Positions 14,885 through 60,000 of a stretch of 64,000 nt of DNA are shown here, one piece after another; positions within the stretch are counted from its first letter, which is position 1; the number at the start of each line of letters is the position of its first letter. A program made the translations under genes and the position numbers. The notes beneath the pieces were generated by a model, which was given only the letters and a program-made list of their open reading frames with translations, was not told where the DNA came from and ran no database searches. This stretch comes from Nereocystis luetkeana (lineage: Eukaryota > Sar > Phaeophyceae > Laminariales > Laminariaceae): positions 9,491,076 to 9,555,075 of the forward strand of contig JARUPZ010000008.1 of assembly GCA_031213475.1 (NCBI GenBank). Direction: 5' to 3'.

Positions 14885-15440
14885 GGGGGGGTATTCATCG
14901 ATGTATATTGTCTGCGACAATATATTGTGGAAGGTATATATCGATAGACGTTGTCGGCGTCTATAGACTGGGATATTGTTGATCGATAGACATTGTCGAA
15001 CACAATGGACGGTGAACCGCGTCCATCGATGGCCATTGCAGGCCTCAATAGATTGTGCGAGCTGTCAACCGATGGCCATTGCCGGCCACAAAAGATAGTG
15101 CGAGATGTCGACCTATGTTCATTGCCGGCCACAATAGATCGTACGAGATGATGTCTGCCGATAACCTTCGCTGGATACAGTGGATTGTGCAGCATGCCTA
15201 TCGATAGCCATTGGTCGCCACAATAGATAGCGCAAGATGTCTATCGATAGCCATTGCTGGCCGCAATAGATAGCGCAAGATGTCTATCGATAGCCATTGC
15301 TGGCCACAATACATTGTGCGAGAGGTCTATAGACGGCCATTGCCGGCCAAAATAGATTTTGCGCAAGATGCGTATCTATGGCCAATGCCGGCCACAATAG
15401 ATTGCACAAGGCTGCCCTCGATAGACATCTCGCGATATAC
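14885..15440 (+). repeat. 43-bp minisatellite, array 1
   Basis: About 13 diverged units; clean period of 43 at 15241-15283 and 15284-15326. Core: CTATCGATAGCCATTGCTGG, then ccacaatagat and gcgcaagatgt. Open frames here are repeat artefacts. Confidence 0.85.
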
Positions 15441-17239: not shown

Positions 17240-17700
17240 AGTGATGGTGTCCATCGACAGACATTGCCCACCACAATAGATTTTCATCGATGTTCATCGA
17301 ATGCAACTGCCGGTCATAATAGATTAGAAATAATATATATATCGAAAGCCATGGCTGGTCACAATAGATTCAGAAACATATATATCGATAGCCGTTGCCG
17401 TCACAATATATTAAGAAATGCATCTATCGATAGGCATTGCCGGCAACTATAGATCAAGAAGTGTTTTTATCGATAGCCACTGTCGACCTCAATATATTCT
17501 GCAAGCTATACCGTCGATAGCCATTTTCGGTGACAATAGGTTCCAACCCGGGTACTTCAGCACACTCCTGCCTGGACATTATGGTGGGGACGTAACCTAT
17601 CGATATACATACATTATCGACGACAATGGATCGAGGAACATGCCAATCGACAGACTTTGCGACGACAATATACCCACCCATGGCACCATATACTATTCCT
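17240..17700 (+). repeat. 43-bp minisatellite, array 3
   Basis: Same orientation as array 1 (cgatagccattgccg...cacaatagatt), spacing 43-55 with AT-rich insertions. Confidence 0.75.
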
Positions 17701-19550: not shown

Positions 19551-20312
19551 CAAATGTATCAAAATATACCGTTGGTGTTATAATCTTTCACTACTATCTG
19601 TTTTCTCTCTTCTTGTGCCTTATATATGGTACCTTGAGACCGTACCGATATCGTAGTAGATATGCAACAAATCCCGACAATGTACTCACACGCTGCAGAA
19701 TTTTTATTCTCCCACGTGCAGTAGTGCTTGTTTTTTTTAGCTTTTGAGTGCGCTCGTAACACCCGCCGCGTCATTCCCTTGTCTCTTAGATACAGATACC
19801 ACACTCTGTACCTATGTGTCGACCTGGTTTCATGTTTACAAATTTAGGAAAATACAGACCAAGTGCTGCCCAAATTGGTCTAATACCACACTCCGGGCCA
19901 TGCGTGTATACCGCTACTAATATTAATAATTGGGCTCTAACTTGACCCAGCATGCCATTAGTAGAACACCTACGAGTAGTTATTTATTCGTCGGGATCTA
20001 CAATGTAGCGCGCCTAGACAAGTAAGTGTAGAACGCCGTACAAGTTGCTTCTTCGTTGGGTTATAAATTAGTAGCGCATACACCTCCCCCATGCCGCATG
20101 TCTCTGTTTTGTTTTCTTATTTGTTATTCCTACTTTTTTTTTTCCGGCATGGATTTTGTTTCCTTGATTTTAGAATCCACAGCTTCGAAGCCGCTACCGC
20201 TCCAGCTGTATTTCCTCGCCTTCTACCCTGAGGTTTTGGGCGTACTCCATTCTACCTTCTCTGCTCCAGTGCCAGCGTTACTCCTCCACCTACCAGGCCA
20301 CCCAGAGACACC

Positions 20313-22896
20313 ATGGACACCTCCAACAACACTCGCGGCGAAAGGTATGCTGCTCGTTCGTCACGTGCCCCTGAGGCCCGCGAGGGGGAAACAGCGGACA
20401 TCGAGGGCACATTGAGCGATATAGCAAACATGGTTGTAACCAAAGAAGAACCTCCGTCGACGGAGGATATCTTGGAGGGGGCCAATACCAAGCCCGAAGC
20501 CGAGGAACGTACGAGGGCGGCCGACCTTCCAGCCGCGGCTGCCGAACGTGATGCTGCTCGCGACGCTGAGTTGGACACACGCGAAGCTGCCCGTGACGTG
20601 GTGCTCGCCAAACGCGACGTCATCTTTCGCCATCTTACCGAAGCTAACGCGGAGTTAGTTTCCCTTACCCCCTATCGGTCGCCGACCACTTCAACTTCCG
20701 TTTTGCCCGCCGTGCAAACGACGACGAGCACGGCGGCAGCCGCCCCCACCCCTGCAACTACCGACCAGCTGTCCCCCGCCACGATGAAAACTGCTAATAC
20801 CATCGTCACGGCACCCTTTCCCTCGCGCCCGACAGTCTCCGCCTCCGAAGCCACTGACATGAAATTCCTCAGTGTCACGCTTGAGTGCATAGAAATCACA
20901 CGCGGATCGTCTGTCCACGTCGTTTCGTCGGCGGCACACCGCCTGCTGAGTTTCTTCCCACGAAACAAGGACCCAACGGTTGCAGATGCAGTGGCCCACG
21001 CTCCAACCGGGCCATCCACCGATTTCATTGCCGCCACGAACACCCTGCTCCATGCCCTTCGCCACCTCCATCCAACATCTGGCCCCGGCCTCAACTTCAA
21101 CTGGGCTCAGACCGACAACCCTCGTAACGACGAGCACTCCACCCGCCCCACCTCCTTCCGCCAAATCCGCGGCCACCCTTCCTGGATGAGCAACCACAGC
21201 ATCGACGACGACAACCGCAGCAGTGACATCGACGTCGACGTGCCTCAGGGACGCCGACTCCACCGTGACCGTGACGGACGCGACTCGGGTCGCGACCACC
21301 ATCAACGCGCGGCCCGGGCGCCCACCCCTACATCCACAAAAGCTCCCAGCATTCCTGCGGCCAGCCAACCTTCGCCTACGCAATCGGCGATGGACACCAC
21401 GCCAGCACTGTCGGACGCAGCACGCACTAGGCGGAACTACACCAATGTCAACATGCGGAGCATGGAGACAATCACTCGCCTTCCGTTCCCCCCTGGCGTC
21501 GACGTTACCACAGGCCTAAGAAGACAACTTTCCAGCGTAACGTTGGTCCAAGCGGAGATCCTCGCCGTTTGCGACGAGACAGGGACGTCCTCCCTCACAT
21601 CCGAGCGCTGGGTTATGAGATGGGACGTCTCCTTCCACAAAATCTTCCGCAGGGCCCTCTCCTCCGCGCAGGGGAATACGTCAGAACTTCCACGGATCAT
21701 CGAGGGTTTTTCCCGTCAGGTACGCAACCACCTCGACCAGGACAACAGGGGGCCTTCGGCGTTGAAACTGCTTTTTGCGCCTGCTCACCTCGCACGTCGA
21801 TACGGGTGACCAAAGCTTCGGCTTTACCCAGCTTCACTCTTACGGTGTACCCACAAACACGGCTTTCGCTGTCTTCTTCCGAGGAGCTAAGGACGTAGTC
21901 TCCATTGTGCAAGGTACAGAAAAGGTGTTCAAGCCAACTGACGCCATGGTCGCGGAGTACGTCCGGTCGAGCGTCAGCCAACAATTCCCGGCTCTGATGC
22001 CGGCACGTTTCCCTGGCTCCCTCATGACCAAGCCGGAGCCCTCCGCCACCGTTCAGGACATGAGGACTGCCTTCGAAGTTCTAGCAACAAACAAGACGCC
22101 GGCTATCAGTGGCGACAAGTTCCACGCCCGGACCAACTGTGGGCACACTACTTAATCCTCAACGAATCCTGCCCCGGTCCAGCTGCAGCGGTCACGTGGT
22201 TCGCACAACCACGCACCGGGATCCTCGTTAAGCCCCTTCGTCATGAACGTCCAAGGTGGAAGCCACGACCCATCCCTGGACGACGCGGCCGACTGGCCGC
22301 TCAGGTGCTTCCCGGAGGTATTCGCCGTCTCCAGGAGGTTCCGCACCCACTACCCCCTGCTATTTTCTACTTTTCTCAACAAGGCCCACCGTACTCAAGC
22401 CCTTCGGGAACACGGTGGCTACTGCCTCAACTGCGGAGGGCGCGATCATAGTTTGAAATCGTGAGAGCTACCGTTCACCAACTCCTCCGGCATCCTCAAC
22501 CCTGATTTGGGTATGCTCAACGACGATTGTTATACTTTCCGTCAATGGCAACAACGCATGCGGTCCTACCGACGGGAACACGGTGATCGCAACCGCAACC
22601 GCTGCAACCGCAACAGCAACAACAACTACAACAACCGCGGCAACAGCCGCTATAACCATGGGCAACCGCGCCAGTACCGTGGACGATACGACGGCTACCA
22701 ACAGCCTCCCGGGCATCAATTTCAACAACGACGCCTCGAGGCATCAGCGGCAGCCGCGACACCTTCAACAGCCTTGACAGTGCAAGCTCCCACTGCAAAC
22801 ACTCCCGCAGCTACTCCTGCGACAAACTTGCGACCCGGCAACAACTATACGCCGACTAGCAACCACCGGCAGCCGGGTACCTTCCGTACGAACTGA
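20313..22896 (+). pseudogene. gag-like region of the gypsy element
   Basis: The ATG at 20313 has a good context (gacaccATGG) and opens a 498-codon frame. The N-terminal third is acidic and coiled-coil-like (AAAERDAARDAELDTREAARD), followed by a proline/threonine-rich stretch and a capsid-like segment. A frameshift near 21800 moves the frame by one base into a continuation (21775-22155, then 22243-22896). A CCHC zinc knuckle reads CLNCGGRDHSLKS and then TGA at 22462 exactly where the last cysteine belongs. The frame then continues with an arginine/asparagine-rich tail (RNRNRCNRNSNNN) like nucleocapsid. Gag packages the RNA; this copy is dead. Confidence 0.72.
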
Positions 22897-23059
22897 CAGG
22901 TTAGTGGTGGAAGGACACTTGCACCTCCCCCAACTGCACCTCCAGCGAGTTTACACGGCGCACAAGACCCCCGTGTTCATCACGTCCGCTCCAAAGTTAC
23001 CCCTGCCCCCAACAGTATTCGGCAAGGCCGATCATTTCCTCTGCGGACACTGGGAGCGC

Positions 23060-23708
23060 AGCTGGATCTACTGACCCGGCTCCCCTCCACACGACCCCAT
23101 GCGACGGTTTACATGACCGACGCCCATCACCACTATCGGACAAGCCTGCACACACCCGGATCCGCACGCTCAACCAACTCCACCTGTTCTGGCAACGCGA
23201 CTCCGTCCTTTCACAGTGGCACATGTCGGACTTCGTACATGAAGGCACCGACTACAACTGCGCCAAGCAGTTCGTCATGGCGCGTAAGGACGCACTCTTT
23301 GGCGACACAACGCGCCACCACCAAATCTTGGTTTCGTCGGGCCCGGCTAAACAGAAGGCCCTCGGACGCGCCGTGTCTGGTTTCCACGACAACGTATGGG
23401 TCCGGCACCGCTTCTCCATCGTTCGTCAAGCGAACGTGAGCAAATTCGGCCAAACCCCGGACTTGCTCAGGTCTCTCTTGGAAACGTGCACCAAAGTCCT
23501 TGCGGAAGCCAGCCCTTTTGACATCATCTGGGGCATAGGTTTCAGGGCAGAAGACCCACAGGCCTACCCACCTTCACTCCGGAAGGGCTCTAACCTTCTG
23601 GGGAGGGTGCTGATGTCCGTTCGACAGGATCTTGCCCCACCCCCTGCCCCCCCTCCTTTTTCTTTCGGGCCCCACGAGCCGAGCGGCACCGCCCAACCCT
23701 CCACCTGA
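23060..23708 (+). CDS. NADAR (YbiA-like / DUF1768) domain inside the retrotransposon
   Basis: Intact 161-codon frame from the ATG at 23223, open without an ATG well upstream; homology begins near 23160. The fold-defining blocks are all visible in order: FWQRDSVLSQWHMSDF, YNCAKQFVMARKDALFGD, LGRAVSGFHDNVWVRHR, SKFGQTPDLLRSLL, EASPFDIIWGIGF and NLLGRVLMSVRQDL. These are hallmarks of NADAR, a family acting on ADP-ribose-linked substrates (riboflavin intermediates, ADP-ribosylated guanine). The usual A-E-Q/H glutamate of the second block is lysine here (CAKQ), so this copy is probably inactive. It is followed by a proline-rich linker, a TGA at 23706-23708, and the protease region in the same frame. 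Position between Gag and protease suggests it was part of the polyprotein. Family assignment is from memory of motif patterns; its role in the element is unknown. Confidence 0.8.
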
Positions 23709-24480
23709 GTGGCCCCCACCAACAACCGTATCTACGAGACAGTTGATACTCCCCTGCAGCTTCCACCGAGTTGTCTGCTTACCCATCTGCTGCCCCCGTC
23801 CACCCCGGACGCATTCCCAGCAGGCCACTCCACCCGACCGCCTGCCCCGGCAGCCAAAACTTACCCCATCGCTGCCGCACCCACGATACCGGAACATGGA
23901 CCCTGCCTCTCCAGCGCCATCCTAACAGTCGACGACTCGTGCGTCACAACGAGGGTGCGAGTTCACAGCGGCCCCAATGCCGTCGAACGCTGCATCACCG
24001 TCACTTTATTGGATACGGGTTCGCTGCAGACTTTCATTGCCGCGGAAGCGGTGGAAAACCTGAAGGCCTGCGGTGCTGGTACCGATGTGTGCGATTGACA
24101 CGGAGCCCCTCGCTCATGTGGCGGCTTCGGCACCTCCGCCCCTCTCACCACCTCCGACTCCATCCGCCTTAGCGTACAGTTCCTGAGAGAAACCTCTCCA
24201 ACGGCCGCCCTAGCCGTGTGGGCATGTGTTGTCCCTCGGGGTACTATGCAGCACCTTATCCGTCTTGGGCGGGACAGCTGGATACACTTCGAGCAACGCT
24301 CGTATACCACGCTTCCCCACCAGCCACCCGGATAACTCCTTGGCGAGCTTTCCCTTCTCCACCACGACCGCAACCGAGCCGCCGCGTTCATTCCCGGCGA
24401 CCGTTCCACAGACGACGTTTACCACCTTCAATACGCCGGCACCCGACCAATCTCCCTTTCGATCACTCCAACGCTTGCCG
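23709..24480 (+). pseudogene. Retropepsin-like protease region of the gypsy element
   Basis: Same frame as the NADAR-like domain, separated from it by one TGA. After a proline-rich leader the aspartic-protease motif reads LLDTGSLQTFI (D-T-G). The frame stops at 24098. The rest of a retropepsin (RLSVQFL, then a segment ending near LGRDSW) continues in another frame up to about 24300, so a frameshift lies near 24090. It would cleave the polyprotein in an intact element. Nothing downstream to 24480 is recognisable. Confidence 0.68.
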
Positions 24481-24883: not shown

Positions 24884-25705
24884 TTGCCACAACACCTTCG
24901 AGACATCTCATTCGACCTCCACGGCCCCGGCTCGTCACCATCGGCCATCGTTGATTTAGGCGACGTTCTGCTCGAATACCAGGACTTCTTCTCCACATCC
25001 AAGATCGACTTCGGCTCGTGCTCCCTGATTCCGTTCAAGATCACCGTGCCGCCTGACAGCGCCCCCTTCACCTCCCGCCCATACCGGATGAACCCGATCA
25101 TTGCCAGAAAGGCCGACGCCATCATCGACCAAGTCCTTGCGGCCGGGCCCATCCAGCACTCCACTTCGCCGTACTCCAGCCCCATGGTAGCTATTCCTAA
25201 GAAAGACGTAGGTGTTCGCATCACGATCAACTACAAGAAGCTCAACGCTATCAGCTCCTTCGGACAACTCCCCATTCCCCGCGTCGACGAGATCCTGGAC
25301 TCTTTGGGCGAAGGACGTATCTTCTCCCTGTTCGACCTCGTCTCCTCCTTCCACCAGATCACCATCGATAAGGACACGATTCCCCTCGCGGCTTTCTGCA
25401 TGCCCGATAGGCTATTCGAGTGGCTCGTCATGCCACCGGGCAGTAGCGCCGCGCCCGGTTGGTTCGTCAATCTCATCAACGAGACCATCAAAGGCCTGGA
25501 ACGCGTCGCCGCCTACGTTGACGACATCATTGTCTATGGTACGGACCCCACCGCCAATATCCGAGCCCTCTTCCTACGCCTCCGCCTCCACAAGCTCAAG
25601 CTCTCCTCCGCCAAGGCCAGAATCGGCGCCACCAAGGCTGCCTTCCTGGGACATACGATCTACCCCGCCGGCGTTAGCCCGAACGCCGACAAGGTCTTTG
25701 CCTAG
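24884..25705 (+). pseudogene. Ty3/gypsy reverse transcriptase domain
   Basis: Contains the RT blocks in order: SRPYRMNP, STSPYSSPMVAIPKKD, ITINYKKLNA, FSLFDLVSSFHQI (block with the first catalytic Asp), MPPGSSAAPGWF, and the YVDDIIVYG active site. It ends with AFLGHTIYPAGVSPNADKVFA before an in-frame TAG at 25703-25705, after which the same frame continues into RNase H. The RT itself thus retains its catalytic aspartates; the polyprotein is cut by the nonsense codon. Confidence 0.9.
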
Positions 25706-26524
25706 ACCAAGATGCCGATGCCGTCGAAAGTAAAGCAAACCCGCGCGCTCATTGGCGGAATTGGCTACTACTGCAAGTTCCTCGGGAACCTCTCCACACG
25801 CCTACGCCCCATCACGGCCCTGCTCAAGCAAGGAGCGAAATATCTTTTCACCCCGGCCATGGAAGCGACCGTCCGCGAGATTCTCCGCGAGCTCGCCGCC
25901 CCTCCGATCCTAGTTTTCCCGGACTACGACGCTGTCGCCGACAACTCCCGCCCCTTCCGCTTGCACTGTGACGCCAGCCGCGACGGCTTCGGCGCCACTC
26001 TCGAGCAGGAACAACCCGACGGCTCCGTCCGACCAATCCTTTTGATCAGCCGCGCCACTTTGGACGCAGAACGTCCTTGGACCCCTCTCGACTTTGAAGC
26101 CGGCAGCATCGTTTGGGCCATCAAGCGACTACGCGGTCACCTTTGGTCAACCATTTTCGTCATCTACTCCGACCATAAGGCGCTCGAGAACAGCGCAAAG
26201 GTCGGCGAGCACAACGCCCGCGTGCAGGGTTGGTTGGAGTTCCTCTGCGCGTACACGTACACGCTGGAGTACCGGACATGTACGGCCAATGGTAACGCCG
26301 ACTTCCTCTCCCGCCTCCCCCAGCCAGCCACCGACGCCGACCGCACTGGACCCAACCGACTGACCAGCCCCGACACCGTGCGTATCTACCTCATCCGTCC
26401 CTGCGGCTTCACGCTGCGGCTTCACGCCGTACGAACCGTCCATGCCGGGCATCGGTTTGGGTGGCCTCGTACCAACTCCCTCCTTTCCCATCCCGGTCAT
26501 CTGACCAATCCCCGTCACTTATGA
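25706..26524 (+). pseudogene. RNase H domain and tail of the gypsy element
   Basis: Continues the RT frame directly after the TAG. The connection domain reads KQTRALIGGIGYYCKFL. RNase H blocks follow: LHCDASRDGFGATLEQ (first Asp), the DFEAGSIVWA glutamate, YSDHKALEN, and NGNADFLSRLP (last Asp). All four acidic positions appear intact. The frame closes at TGA 26522-26524; the spacer to integrase (26525-27480) is proline/alanine-rich and split over frames. Confidence 0.85.
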
Positions 26525-27480
26525 CGACTACGGCGACTTCCGCCACCTTGGACCCTCCATGGGTTCCTCCGGACCTTCCTCGGCCCCCAAAACCTTCGTC
26601 GGGCCTATTTCGACCCACGACAACGCCGCCGGGTCCCTCGCCAGACCCGCGAACGGCGCCGTGGACGCTGGCGCTTTTCCTGGTTTGGCTTTCAGGCCGC
26701 CCCTCGTCTCTCCGCCGCCCACCATTGGCGCCACAACGCCAGCTCCTACAGACCTGATATCTTCGCGGACCAGCCATCGCGTCGCCGCCGCTGGCATTCC
26801 CCGTGCCACCGTCGACTATGGTTTCGGCCGCCGAGTAACGGCGGCTGCACCTCCAAAATCAGCGCCTTCCCGACCTCGCGCACCCGCGCCCACAGCCAGA
26901 GGGCTACCGCGTCTTTCCGAACCAACAACCCTCCAGGCCGTGCCGCCCGCGTAACCAGCGCAGACCGCGCTGCGAGCGCCCATGTGCTCAAGATCGCCTT
27001 CGGGACCGTCTTCTTCCCCACCTAGGCCCCACACCCACGAGCCTGCCGTCGGGCCCAACAACGGTCTCCCAAGACCGGCTTCAGCGCGACCTCTTCCACG
27101 ATCTCCGGTGTCACCCCCGCTTCTCCTGCCGGCGTTTGCCGACAACGACCCCCCCCTCCTCTCGTGTGTGGAGCACTTGACGCACACAAACTGGGCGCGC
27201 GAACAAAGCGCCGAGCCCCACTGCGCCGCTACCATCCACTACCTTTCCCTGCACTCCCCAGCCCCCCCGCCGCCCGACCTTCTGCATCAATTCCAGCTGT
27301 GCCGGCGCCCGTCGCTTCCAGACGTGATTGCCTTCGCAGGAAAAACCAACTTCACCGCACAGACGACAACACCGTTCTCCTGGTTCGACAACCACTTAAG
27401 CCTCACCACACCGGAACCAGCTGCGCATCCTCCACCGCACCCCCTCCACGCATCTACGTTCCGATGTTGATGCGTCCTTA
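26525..27480 (+). pseudogene. RNase H-integrase spacer of the gypsy element
   Basis: A GC-rich, proline- and alanine-rich stretch with partial open frames (for example 26559-26954). I recognise no domain. Its composition matches the neighbouring coding DNA, so it is read as a frameshifted linker of the polyprotein. Confidence 0.45.
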
Positions 27481-28562
27481 GGTGGTGCACACCTGCCACG
27501 CCACCGCTTCCTGCCACTTGAGAGTCTCCCGCACGGTCAGCATGCTCGCACGCGTTTTCTGGTGGATCGGCATGGACATCTCCGCCCGCTGGTGGATCCG
27601 GCGCTGTCGCAAGTGCCAGGCGCGTAAGACCTCGCGCCAAACCATCCGCTGGCCCACCCTTTTCCAGCCCCTGCCTAACGGCCCCGGTATCACCGTCAGC
27701 GTCCACTACGTCGGCCCGCTGCCCCTTACCCCACGCGGCCACTCCTACGTCCTCCTCTTCACCGACCGCTTCAGCCGCCGCGCCGACATGTACGCAGTGG
27801 CAGGAGCCCAGTACACCGCCGTCGATACCGCCGATATCCTAATCGACCAGTGCATCCCTCTGTGGGGGTGCCCCGTCACCCTTTATCTCCGACAACGCGC
27901 TGCACTTCACCTCGAAGCTCTCCAACGCCATCTATGAAAACGCCTTGGCATCAACAAGATCAACACCAGCTCGTACCACCCCTTCACCAATGGCGATGTC
28001 GAGCGCGTCAACCACACCATGGCCCAAATGCTCTCCATGGGCAGCAACGAGTGACAAGACAACTGGAACGAGCTGCTTCCGCACGTCGAATCCGCCTACA
28101 ACAACTCGGTCTACGCCTCTACTGGGCTGGCGCCTAACGAAGTCCACATAGGCTGCCTTCCGCGTCTGCCCCTTTCCTGTTTGGACTGCCCCAACATTGG
28201 CGGCCACCAGAGCCTGGACCGAAACCGCCTGTCCTACTGCAACCTTGCCATCGAGCGCCAACAACCCGCTTACCGCCTCGTCCGCGAACACCACGCCGTC
28301 ACCGCTTCACGTCTGGCCCGCCGCAACAATCCCATCATGGACGCCCTTCGCCTTTCACCCCCGTACACCATGGGCGGCTGGGCACGGGTCTACAACTCCG
28401 CGGCCACTATTCGCCAAGGTGCCAAGAAAGACACCGACACCACCGTGCTCAAGACCAAGCTTTCCCTCAACTAGATCGGACCGTTCAAGATTCTCGCCGT
28501 GGGCCCAGCGCCGGCCGTTTTTTCCGATCCAATCGGGGGTTGTAATCGCATTTGACCCAGTT
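27481..28562 (+). pseudogene. Integrase of the gypsy element
   Basis: The zinc-finger part reads SCHLRVSRTVS and CRKCQARK (C-x2-C). The core starts SVHYVGPLPLTPRG, where a histidine codon (CAC, near 27703) stands at the place of the first catalytic Asp. The second Asp (ISDNALHF, near 27880) is out of frame with it, and the glutamate motif (NGDVERVNH) lies in a third stretch. In-frame stops follow at 28052 (TGA) and 28472 (TAG), and similarity runs on to about 28530 (GPFKILAVGPA). No chromodomain is seen. It is inactive on at least four counts. Confidence 0.85.
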
Positions 28563-29496: not shown

Positions 29497-29585
29497 CCCC
29501 TTTAGTACCGCAGTCCCGATTCGGGGACAAACCACTCTAATTCAAAGTGATTTGTCCCCAAAACGGGACTGGGGTTCTAAAAGGG
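29497..29585. mobile_element. piggyBac-type MITE (P1)
   Basis: 89-bp near-perfect palindrome beginning CCC and ending GGG, flanked on both sides by TTAA (29493-29496, 29586-29589). TTAA duplications with CCC/GGG ends are the signature of piggyBac elements. Confidence 0.8.
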
Positions 29586-29589
29586 TTAA

Positions 29590-30429
29590 GACCCTGACAT
29601 TTAGATGAGTCTGGCGGCAGAGCGCTACTGTTGACAGAACCAACGTACGTATGCAGCCAACCACGGGTACTTTCCATAGTACTTCATCTGATAACCAAAA
29701 AACAGGCCTACCTCCCTCTTCTTATTTCTATTGTAGAGGCCGACAACAACCATCCTATGAGCATTTTGTGTATCTACTCTAGGTTAGGTGCCTATCAACA
29801 CAACGGAAACGATTCCACGGTTTGTTGTCGAAGGGCTGTCACACCCAGAAGGGCGTTTCGAGCTTCTCCTTCTGCTCACATCAACGTAAAGACGATCGCA
29901 AACAAGCGCTCGTCCAAAACTCAAGCTGGTACGTAGTCACAAGCTTCCTGGCCAGCACAGGTGTCCCGCATCCCAGTGTGATGTTGGTATCGACTCACTC
30001 GCCGTGCAGAGACAGCGTATTATCATATTTTGTTGTACTAAACAAGGACGGCTGCAGTATGTATATTGAACATGAGCTACTCTCAGTAAACGAAATATGA
30101 TTCTTGCCATCCGACGATGTGCACCAAAACATTCTTGAAACATGTAATCCCCGGAAAGAAAGGTAACCTATGCTCAAGGTACATCTACCTTATATTCCTA
30201 TTCCCCTCTATGCTTTATCTACGATACTCCATGTGTTGGCTTTGCTCCCTCCAAAAAATCAAAATGTACTCGTCACAATAAATTTTGAAATCTCAAGCCG
30301 CACCCAGGCTCCATCCCCACGATATCGATGTGGGGTCATTCGCCCCCCCCGCCCTGCTCCTTCTCGATTTCTGACGACTCCTAAGCTGGAGTCTAAATCG
30401 CGACAACCAGTTCGAAATGGGGATTTGTG
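29590..30429. other. No gene identified
   Basis: Frames up to 118 codons without recognisable features. Confidence 0.5.
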
Positions 30430-33295: not shown

Positions 33296-34465
33296 ATAGG
33301 GGGAAACACCAGCGGTAGGGAAAGCGCGGTTGACAAGAAGACCAGGAAGAAGACGGCGTACAGCGCGAGACGATACCAGACAGACTACATACAGCAGGTA
33401 GAACCTTCCCAAGCAACGTAATATTCTGCTGCGGTTGCCTCGAAATCGCATGTTGGGCGTGCTCAGCTTTTCTTACCCTTCTTCCATCTTGTTTTTGTAC
33501 CAATTAGCTTAAACGTATCGTCACATTATTTCCTTCGTGGGTGGCGCACCTGCTCCACGTGATTGGTGTGATTTCTCTGCTAGCTATGTTATTGTTTTGG
33601 TTGACTCAATATTATTATCGTTGAGAGTGCAATAACGTAATTTGCGGAATACACAACTTATTATATGTTAAGTCGATTGTGCTCAAACCGAGACAGCAGC
33701 TTAACCCTTTTAGAACTCCAGTCCCGTTTCGGGTACACACAACTCAAATTCCGAGTAATTTGTCCCCAATTGTCCCCAAAACGAGACCGCAGTCCTAAAA
33801 GGGTTAATATTGATTTAATTGTCAATCGCAATTACTCCCGGGGGGAACAATACTATTTGTTTACACTGGAGTATATTCCCTACGTTTCCCATACGTTGTT
33901 TTCCTCGTGTATGGATGCATACCTGAATTGCTGCCCTGTGTATATTGTGCCTTTTGTATCCAGTTTGATGGCATGACACTCCTTTTCTCACTGGTTTTCC
34001 TGCGTTAAATTGTGTTTCCGCTGTGTCGGTGTCGTTGTGCGCAATGAGTCTAGCTCTCGCGGAGTAAAAATCGTTACGGACATTGGGCGATCTGGATGTC
34101 GACGTGTCAACATACTGTTTCATTGTACAGAACGCACACACGAAGGGCCGTTGTTACGAGAGAGCTATATTTTCCCATAATATGCCGAAACTCGCAAGTA
34201 AGTGTGTGTATGTAGCTCAGCAGTTCTACAAGAATTACTATTAAGGGTCGGGTCGCAGCTGGTACACGATTCGTACTGCGACTTTGTCATGTTCAGCGAA
34301 ACAATCATCAGGAAATATATCATATACTTTAAAGCTTATGTGCTACTCCTTGCTGTACCGTACCAGTACATACATGGTGGTGGTGGGATTCGGGCGTGGA
34401 GCATGTTGTTTGCCCGGCCTGGTTCTTCGCAGCGAACTGTTGTATTTTTTAGCCTTCGTTGGCTT
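33296..34465. other. No gene; one MITE
   Basis: Holds MITE P2 and a possible very old LINE tail near 34080-34140 (ggatgtcgacgtgtcaa...cgcacacac). Confidence 0.5.
33705..33803. mobile_element. piggyBac-type MITE (P2)
   Basis: 99 bp, TTAA on both sides (33701-33704, 33804-33807). A ttgtccccaa segment is duplicated in the right arm. Confidence 0.8.
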
Positions 34466-57000: not shown

Positions 57001-60000
57001 GATCAGGTGCACGGTACTTCCTCCGGGGGTGATGCCGACGAGCTGCGGCTTCTCAGCACAAACGGGACCTACATAAATCTGCGTGGCTACGGAGGGAACC
57101 TCGACTTCGTGAGCACCAAGGTTCGTTCGGCGTTCGCATGAACATATAGTTGATTTGACATATATATATATATATATATATATATCTGGGACGTCACGCC
57201 AATTTTGCTATTTACGAAGAAAATCGTATATCGCGGGCATCGTTACTATTATGCATCTTGGTGGCACCCCACATCATATATATACCCCAAAAAACTGACT
57301 CGGAAAAGGAATCGTGTACAGGTCTGTTAGCACTATCGTGCTAAAAGTGTGCTGCACTATATACTGACGTGTACTTGCAGGTAAGAAACATTTTGTGTCC
57401 GCCGAACGTCTGTTTGCTAGTTGATGAATTATTGCGTGCTCACAAGGGCTACTGCCCCTCTTAAGTGTTTCCCCGGGCCCGACGCCATCACCCCGGTGTC
57501 TCCAGGTATATTCGTGGGATACTTCCATCAACGCACCAGACGAAAACGAGGAAGACGGTCGGTCCTTCATCAGCGCCGTATCAGAGATTATCACAGACAG
57601 CACAGAGACGTGCGTTGGCAGGGCCAAGAAAGAGATGGGAGAGGCGCGGATGGACATCGAAGACAGCGAGATGGCCTACCTTGGGTTCCACGACGGCGAG
57701 AGCTACGGCCTCACGTGGAAGGTGAGGGGGGGGGGGGAGTACGTACGCCGTCGAACGACGAGTCGTAGTTCTGGGTATGTCGTCACTTGCTTTTTAGTTT
57801 TGCAGGATAATGCTTGCGGAGAGTCATGATGAAGGCAAGGCGATATGGTCGTTTTCGCTATATTCGGACAACAAATACTCTTGTCTGGTACGTAGTTCCT
57901 GGTCAGACATGCTCGTATCATATATGACGTACACTGGTACGAAACAGTCTCTTCCCTACATGAACGTAGATGGTCATTATGAGGTGGGTGGGGGTCGTCC
58001 GCAGAAGACTGTCAAGTTGATGACGTCACGCCTACGCCTCTGTAACGGATACCGACTGAACAAGCATCGATAGGAAGTCGTCACCCTCTTGTGGAGGTGT
58101 TTACCTTCGCAATACGGTTGCACGTCGCTAGTAATGGGTGGAAGGATATCAACAAGGAAATACGGAAGCCATCGGTCGTACGTAATAATATTGTTCCCGA
58201 CCGCCATGGTTTTTTTCTTATCGCGCCAAGGCGCGCTGAGATTAGAGTTGCAAACGAGTGGATGGTTTTTGTCATATATCCCCTGTTGCCAGCTATCGCA
58301 CATTGATCCCGAACTCACACATTCATATCAGGTTCGAGGGTTCTGCAAGGTTAAGAGCAACCCTGAAGTATTCGATGTGGTCAACGTGTACGGCAACATC
58401 TACGACTCAGACATACACCACAACCACTTTGGTATGTACACGTACGGCCACCAGCAAGGCGACTGGAGGAGGAACAAGATGCACGACAACACGGCGTACG
58501 GCTTCGACCCCCACGACGACAGCGACTTCTTGACCATTCACGACAACGATGTCTACAACAACGTGAAGCACGGCATTATCGCCTCCAAGCGCTGCAACGG
58601 AGTGTCCATCCAGGTATGTTGGTTGGGGAATTTGGGACGGCTAACGTTCCTGATCGCCTTTGTTAGCGATATTGACAGATGTAGGGCCACGTTTCGAAAC
58701 TACGGTGCTCAAAGATCGCAGAGAGACATGCCTTACCTTCTGGGCACCAACCTCTTCTAGTATTGCATTGCTTATAAGTGAAACTGCCTAGTGAGATAGT
58801 GTTCGGCAACAAACAAATTTGAGACTTGAGTTAGTGGGAAGTGTTACCTTGTTTGTACTACACGACGTAATGAACGTTTGCTCTTAGTTGTTGGCGATTG
58901 AATGTACTCCTTGCATACGTTGCCTCGACACACCCATTTCCGATATGGTTTTCATTTGTGCCGACTGTCAGGGAAACGAGGTATACGGTGGCGGTGAAAA
59001 GTCGGTTGGAATATTCCTGCACCGGAGCGGTGATGACGCCACTGTCAAAGGTATGGAATCCTGTTGAGCAGCTAACTTTCACGCATCCGCCCATGCGCCT
59101 GTGCTGCATCGTTCGAGATGTGAATTGTGCGTGACCCGGTTTCCTTGTCTGAATCGTTTCTAGACAAAATTATTCAGCCACCCAACTCTCATGAAATCAG
59201 AACTTTCGCTGGACGACTATGTTGCCCGGTGACGTCATCGACGATTTCTGTCGATCTTCTCGCATTCCCAAGGGGAAACGCTTGGGCCAAGTTTCGGTTT
59301 TTCGGTGTGCATCGGCGCTGTACTGCTACATGGACCAAGCGACATTGAGGCGTATTTGATCGGTTCACGAGATAGAATGCACACAACCGGAACCGCGATA
59401 ATTTGGAACTGACACGAGGCCGGCGTGGTTTGACCTTCATGCTGCACGATCTCGTACACCGTATCGTGGACCGAAATAGAGGGAGTGCAGGGTTGGTTTC
59501 TGTATTTGGTGGCCAAAGGATAAAAAATACCCATCATAACGGTTGTTTCTGTGCTTGATTGTATCACAGGAAACTACGTCCACGACAACGGCGATGCCGG
59601 TATGGCCTTGATGGAGAGTTTCAACGCCGACGTGTCCGGCAACACTTTCGAGAACAACAAGTACGGTGTGAGAATGTCGGTTGGATGCGCCAACAACATC
59701 TTCTACGAAAACGTCTTTGATGATGCAACCAAGTGAGAATGGTCACCTTGGGTTTTCAACCCAGTTGAGGCGGGCACATGGCACGTGCTTTTTTAGCGGT
59801 AGTGCGCAAAGGTTCTTGGGCCACCTGACGCGAGGAGCACCATACCTGGCGGACGACTGATGTTTGTCAACATGAATAGACTTGCATCGATAAACAATCA
59901 TATGGCATCTGAGGTGGTGCGCCAAAGTTCTCGGGCCACCTGACACGAGGAGTCCCAGACCTAGCGGACGCCAGATGTTTGTCAACATGAATAGGCTTGC

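Follow-up and report, generated by a model that had tools for sequence, protein, structure and literature searches.

A putative NADAR ADP-ribosyl-hydrolase domain at the start of Pol in Ty3/gypsy retrotransposons of the brown alga Nereocystis luetkeana

Introduction

What is a NADAR (YbiA-like) domain doing inside a retrotransposon? The question is raised by a stretch of 64,000 nucleotides of Nereocystis luetkeana (contig JARUPZ010000008.1, positions 9,491,076 to 9,555,075 of the forward strand; hereafter the window), for which a NADAR domain captured by a Ty3/gypsy element, between its gag and protease, had been proposed from the letters alone. NADAR proteins, including YbiA-family members, remove ADP-ribose from guanine in vitro (PMC11543638, PMC11125620). 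A NADAR-carrying Gypsy lineage, exemplified by Gypsy-12_Ec32, was described from Ectocarpus in 2025 (PMC12477816), and NADAR in a gypsy Pol is thus an already known kind of arrangement. Because it is in print, the value of the present analysis lies in extension and testability.

Results

The window holds a decayed element with a NADAR domain

The profile search bore out the NADAR domain predicted at 23060-23708: PF08719 matched the open frame at 22905-23708 with 145.4 bits against a curated cut-off of 35.1 (E 2.4e-42), and the domain conforms to the YbiA fold. The recognisable parts of the element are:

20232..21809, + strand: 5' part of gag, an open frame that matches the gag frame of locus L017 from 20826 on
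21772..22893, + strand: 3' part of gag, in a different frame from the 5' part, ending QPGTFRTN as in group A gags
near 22423-22464, + strand: CxxCxxxxH knuckle within the 3' part of gag, damaged at its last position
22894..22896, + strand: gag stop TGA; next comes CAG, with a pol-leader-like QVSGG read in the gag frame, resembling the gag-TGA-pol junction of relatives
22905..23708, + strand: NADAR-holding open reading frame, 267 aa
23187..23633, + strand: NADAR (YbiA-family) domain, frame residues 95-243, PF08719
~24009..24023, + strand: LDTGS, motif of an aspartic protease, past a stop codon but in frame with NADAR
25193..25660, + strand: reverse transcriptase (RT), PF00078, E 5.2e-18
25940..26254, + strand: RNase H, PF17917, E 4.9e-25
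27485..27634, + strand: integrase zinc-binding domain, PF17921, E 2.3e-10; the rve core after it is weak (E 0.097)
27635..28516, + strand: remainder of the integrase region, with breaks; the match to group A Pol stops at 28516

The flanks that had been predicted are therefore present, with a knuckle-bearing gag upstream and, downstream, LDTGS and then pieces of RT, RNase H and integrase, all on the same strand; the predicted zinc knuckle itself survives except for its damaged last position. In this copy the NADAR lies outside the gag frame and shares its frame with LDTGS across an intervening stop codon. The Ty3/gypsy order of protease, RT, RNase H and integrase is found both in the window pieces and in the frames of long relatives. 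The window copy is a dead, truncated member of this group: several stops and frame changes showed in a tblastn comparison with the L017 Pol frame, and homology ends about 134 codons short of the end of the L011 Pol frame. DNA identity with long group A copies was ~72% from ~23181-23202 to 26834 and ~75% from 27139-27145 up to the end of the match at 28516. A search for LTRs around this 3'-truncated copy gave no pair.

Other features of the window were recorded alongside. An inverted repeat pair of 68 bases (79%; 29523-29590 and 33700-33767, 4.1 kb apart) lies directly downstream of the element remnant, and a ~43-base tandem repeat forms two arrays with similar units upstream of it (15021-15404 and 17308-17479). 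Pfam searches of ten more window frames gave one family match, a beta-helix at 58074-58757 that resembles mannuronan C5-epimerases; two of its 87 homologues carry an enzyme name, both Ectocarpus mannuronan C-5-epimerases. The homologues with a named source were brown-algal (including Discosporangium, Choristocarpus and Hapterophycus) except for three with generic JGI labels.

NADAR-first Pol frames are abundant in the genome

PF08719 yielded 778 candidates in the 465 Mb assembly (1987 contigs), and all of the best 150, which were scored, exceeded the cut-off. Internal stops were present in 20 of these best 150 places and absent from 130; 47 of the stop-free ones lie in open frames of 2000 aa or more. 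These figures bear in both directions on a reading that we consider very improbable, namely that the domain was captured once and has been carried along ever since without use to the element: the 20 places with stops agree with it, and the 47 long open frames among the same 150 argue against it. Fetched loci were assigned to groups A (32 loci), B (15 loci) and C (L028), the window's own subfamily being termed W. In the Pol frames of L011, L017 and L028, Pfam recognised NADAR, RT, RNase H and integrase in this order, with NADAR as the first recognised domain, the rve core under the Pfam cut-off in all three and LDTGS between NADAR and RT.

A protein search with the NADAR and protease of L018 as query returned seven long proteins among 6199 candidates. 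Six of the seven, P0078-P0083, from other contigs, have RT and RNase H alongside NADAR, and integrase as well in four cases; the window's own species may be among their sources, as the epimerase-like frame at 58074-58757 has a 100% identical database protein (P0085). The long RT relative P0084, with no NADAR listed, was rejected as a case of loss because its sequence begins inside the NADAR-protease linker and so cannot be counted. Viral contigs scanned with the NADAR and RT pieces yielded no relative. A C-terminal chromodomain on the integrase is a feature of the Ectocarpus NADAR-Gypsy lineage. Pfam gave no chromodomain match in L011, P0081, P0082 or P0084, and the window copy ends before that part; to the eye, the C-terminal tails of P0082 and P0084 resemble a chromodomain. 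The two tails share a second segment, WYK..DG.WWLGKI...YI.RFLD, with no Pfam name, which could be another reader domain. Elsewhere among the NADAR proteins, the domain occurs together with the tRNA-binding domain PF01588 in P0001, P0003, P0004, P0005, P0007, P0008 and P0012, which form one tree group, and these fusions suggest a tRNA-linked role for NADAR.

Starting from RT, 1503 candidates were found and 128 scored, 99 of which have a listed NADAR 0.87-2.15 kb upstream on the same strand. The chance insertion of a host gene into the window copy only, raised with the original prediction as an outcome that would undo it, is rejected by this count and can be put aside as practically impossible. 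No listed NADAR lay upstream of the other 29 scored RT matches, which is no proof of its absence there since the NADAR searches scored the best 150 of 778 and 144 of 892 candidates; the excess of RT over NADAR candidates leaves room for NADAR-less relatives. The capture of a NADAR by a gypsy element is thus supported and reaches well beyond the window copy, to many loci. We regard the identity of the domain and its place at the head of Pol as nearly certain.

Gag ends in a TGA codon ahead of Pol

Twenty loci of 10 kb were taken, 19 of them group A loci with the gag-end motif. In all 19, gag ends in TGA, and a stricter pattern gave TGACAA in 12 of 12 matching loci. The peptide after the TGA was Q-A/V-D-G-G-A-P in most of the 12 group A loci and, similarly, Q-V-S-G-G-R in the gag frame of the window; of three group B frames, two (L001 and L003) start with Q-V-D-G-G-S directly after a stop, and the group C locus likewise has gag followed by TGA, with a different leader. 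Relatives in better condition run Gag, UGA, leader, NADAR, protease, RT, RNase H and integrase. The domain had been proposed as a Gag-side accessory, which has to be revised: it follows the gag stop and forms the N-terminus of Pol.

Read-through of the UGA would most likely make Gag-Pol, as judged from these junctions. The NADAR frame equals the gag frame in 7 of the 19 group A loci, and in 6 of these (L014, L015, L016, L018, L019 and L022) no further stop interrupts it between the TGA and the NADAR. In 12 of the 19, gag and pol frames differ, so that read-through cannot serve these loci without further events. The Pol leader, from the gag stop to the NADAR, contains a repeated unit (23017-23092 in the window) with two or three matches each in L050, L051, L052, L054, L055 and L056. 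The leader is not equally long in all copies, a difference that may account for the changes of frame between gag and pol.

The active site is largely conserved

Ten ADP-ribose-contact or rescue positions of the Phytophthora nicotianae NADAR (8bau) were taken from PMC11543638. Seven of them (E43, K50, R79, W89, E125, D130 and W133) are invariant in five transposable-element (TE) representatives (A, B, C, P0079 and P0082), compared with 50 of all 153 columns (hypergeometric p 0.014). One of the five departs at K75 and one at R93, and the contact residue D86 is variable, reading E, C, A, H and S across the lineages. Group A retains E43 in 31 of 32 loci, group B in all 15 and group C in its single locus; the window copy has lysine at this first active-site glutamate (8bau numbering) and keeps K50, while the three other fetched NADARs of subfamily W (L049, L053 and L057) keep E43. 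At the E125 position, glutamate marks the YbiA family, aspartate the BC4488 type and histidine the phage type; glutamate was found in the window, the five representatives, all 32 group A loci and 14 of 15 group B loci. Fold and active site, including E125, are shared with the YbiA-family 8bau and E. coli YbiA (2b3w), which were studied as separate proteins, whereas the brown-algal NADAR is a domain of Pol.

From this conservation we judge a catalytic role of the domain probable. Retention for binding or particle architecture alone, with no catalysis, would agree with the variability at D86 and with a NADAR that changes faster than RT (see below); it is improbable in view of the seven invariant positions.

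NADAR is under purifying selection and evolves faster than the compared Pol regions

Selection on NADAR is purifying between groups, with pN/pS below 1 (0.38-0.62 at pS 0.61-0.80 in seven between-group pairs), values that also tell against a domain of no use to the element. Within groups, the polymorphism ratio was 0.46 in A (31 stop-free copies) and 0.57 in B (13), and among four W copies 0.37-0.74 (six pairs), all as expected for many sampled copies in decay. One A-C locus pair had 47% identity in NADAR, 57% in the protease region, 68% and 69% in the integrase domains, 78% in RT and 81% in RNase H; pN/pS for this pair was 0.52 in NADAR versus 0.20 in RT. The faster change of NADAR than of the compared Pol regions would fit either an arms race or weaker constraint.

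Between lineages, the TE NADARs are just 42-64% identical, and persistence over such divergence further disfavours passive carriage. Identity with three stand-alone homologues, one from Actinomadura and two metagenomic and labelled bacterial, was 43-53%. The source of the domain was probably bacterial, in line with what the Ectocarpus authors suggest (PMC12477816). A single clade of TE NADARs was compatible with the data for 9 TE rows (p-AU 0.42) and for 15 TE rows (p-AU 0.76), the tree constrained to that clade scoring higher in the latter case. Separate captures in each lineage are accordingly unsupported, without a single origin being thereby proven. A swap of NADARs between lineages is likewise unsupported, as the RT grouping is compatible with the NADAR data (p-AU 0.508), although the TE-only NADAR tree splits A and W from the rest. 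One old capture followed by descent with the element would be the simplest reading of these trees.

A deletion derivative lacks a whole NADAR

The expected NADAR site was fetched for 11 RT matches 80-88% identical to the window. Four sites hold a whole NADAR, three of W type and one (L059) of A type, and seven do not. Six of the seven carry the repetitive leader there instead, ~0.7 kb closer to RT than in the window; the seventh, L058, matched nothing. In L060 (G000:C6:8178800-8179860), which continues one of the six, ~0.71 kb are missing between the equivalents of window positions ~23409 and ~24122, removing the C-terminal half of the NADAR and the protease motif. At five further places the NADAR match ends at residue 168 or 169, and two of these adjoin RT matches of the eleven. 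It seems that one W-type deletion derivative multiplied to several copies, one junction having been seen in DNA.

Multiplication of a derivative that lacks the C-terminal half of NADAR would suit a domain of no use to the element; because the protease motif is missing too, these copies were probably moved in trans, by the proteins of whole copies. Related copies without the domain had been named in advance as grounds against the capture. Such copies do exist (the seven of 11 without a whole NADAR), and the one examined is a secondary deletion, not an absent capture; with one junction seen in DNA, we read the derivative as a secondary loss and not as evidence against the capture.

Discussion

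The elements described here belong to a brown-algal Ty3/gypsy lineage whose Pol starts with a NADAR domain, a putative ADP-ribosyl hydrolase. The Ectocarpus lineage is described as having the same arrangement of NADAR and gypsy element (PMC12477816); the window copy differs in being decayed, truncated and in Nereocystis luetkeana. The same paper reports a NADAR, termed divergent by its authors, in the ORF1 of Crassostrea gigas Tx1 LINEs; these too are retrotransposons, but non-LTR ones with the domain in ORF1, and their NADAR is probably a separate capture. In the positive-strand RNA viruses of PMC9503650, NADAR likewise sits in a polyprotein with a polymerase, there an RNA-dependent RNA polymerase, and unlike the gypsy element these viruses are not retroelements; the retroelement terms searched for in the main text of that paper were absent. 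Only PMC12477816 joined NADAR and transposable elements in the literature texts examined, PMC11088682 naming both in unrelated places. Within the texts on NADAR with retrotransposons, the Ectocarpus paper being taken without its supplements, we found no active-site and rate analysis, no gag-UGA-NADAR-Pol layout, and no copy numbers in further genomes or deletion derivative.

Its kept active site and its place before protease and RT make a particle-borne eraser, removing ADP-ribose from the element's own nucleic acids, the likeliest role of the domain, one that we advance tentatively. The functions first proposed for it, protection of RNA or cDNA against ADP-ribosylation or a part in NAD metabolism, would be in keeping with the conserved active site. 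Occasional read-through of the UGA would yield Gag-Pol; NADAR would enter the virus-like particle at Pol dosage, and the protease would free it beside RT, where it could strip ADP-ribose from guanines in RNA or cDNA of the element or, alternatively, dispose of related ADP-ribose derivatives of host origin. Against this reading, the search for a host writer enzyme gave just one PARP exon match (of six candidates; E 1.1e-5), matched in none of 14 control genomes.

The main rival to a nucleic-acid eraser is action on small molecules, that is on soluble ADP-ribose derivatives, NAD-derived signals or toxic by-products, which we regard as unlikely. PMC9503650 holds that viral NADARs may favour soluble ADP-ribose derivatives, and NADAR enzymes of bacteria and plants also serve riboflavin metabolism (PMC11543638). 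For eukaryotic RNA viruses PMC9503650 itself inclines to macromolecular targets; the family members assayed in PMC11543638 and PMC11125620 act on DNA bearing ADP-ribose on guanine, and placement in Gag-Pol suggests that the amount and site of the domain follow the particle, not the cytosol. Processing or repair of the element's RNA or of its tRNA primer is quite unlikely: the Ectocarpus authors propose processing of the RNA intermediate (PMC12477816) and links of NADAR to RNA repair are noted in PMC9503650, but Pfam scans of six long Pols (L011, L017, L028, P0081, P0082 and P0084) revealed no partner domain for such a role.

An eraser in Pol could also be a counter-defence, with brown algae, and perhaps oysters, marking the RNA or cDNA of retroelements by guanine ADP-ribosylation and the Pol NADAR erasing the mark, a conjecture that we rate as doubtful. 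If it were true, nucleic-acid ADP-ribosylation would be a hitherto unrecognised way in which eukaryotes restrict transposable elements, and the faster change of NADAR than of RT would reflect an arms race. The arrangement recurs in a second brown alga, where its copy number is high (a lower bound), Pol frames are open and the active site is conserved. With a putative ADP-ribosylation eraser fixed in the Pol of successful retrotransposons, host ADP-ribosylation of transposon nucleic acids becomes directly testable.
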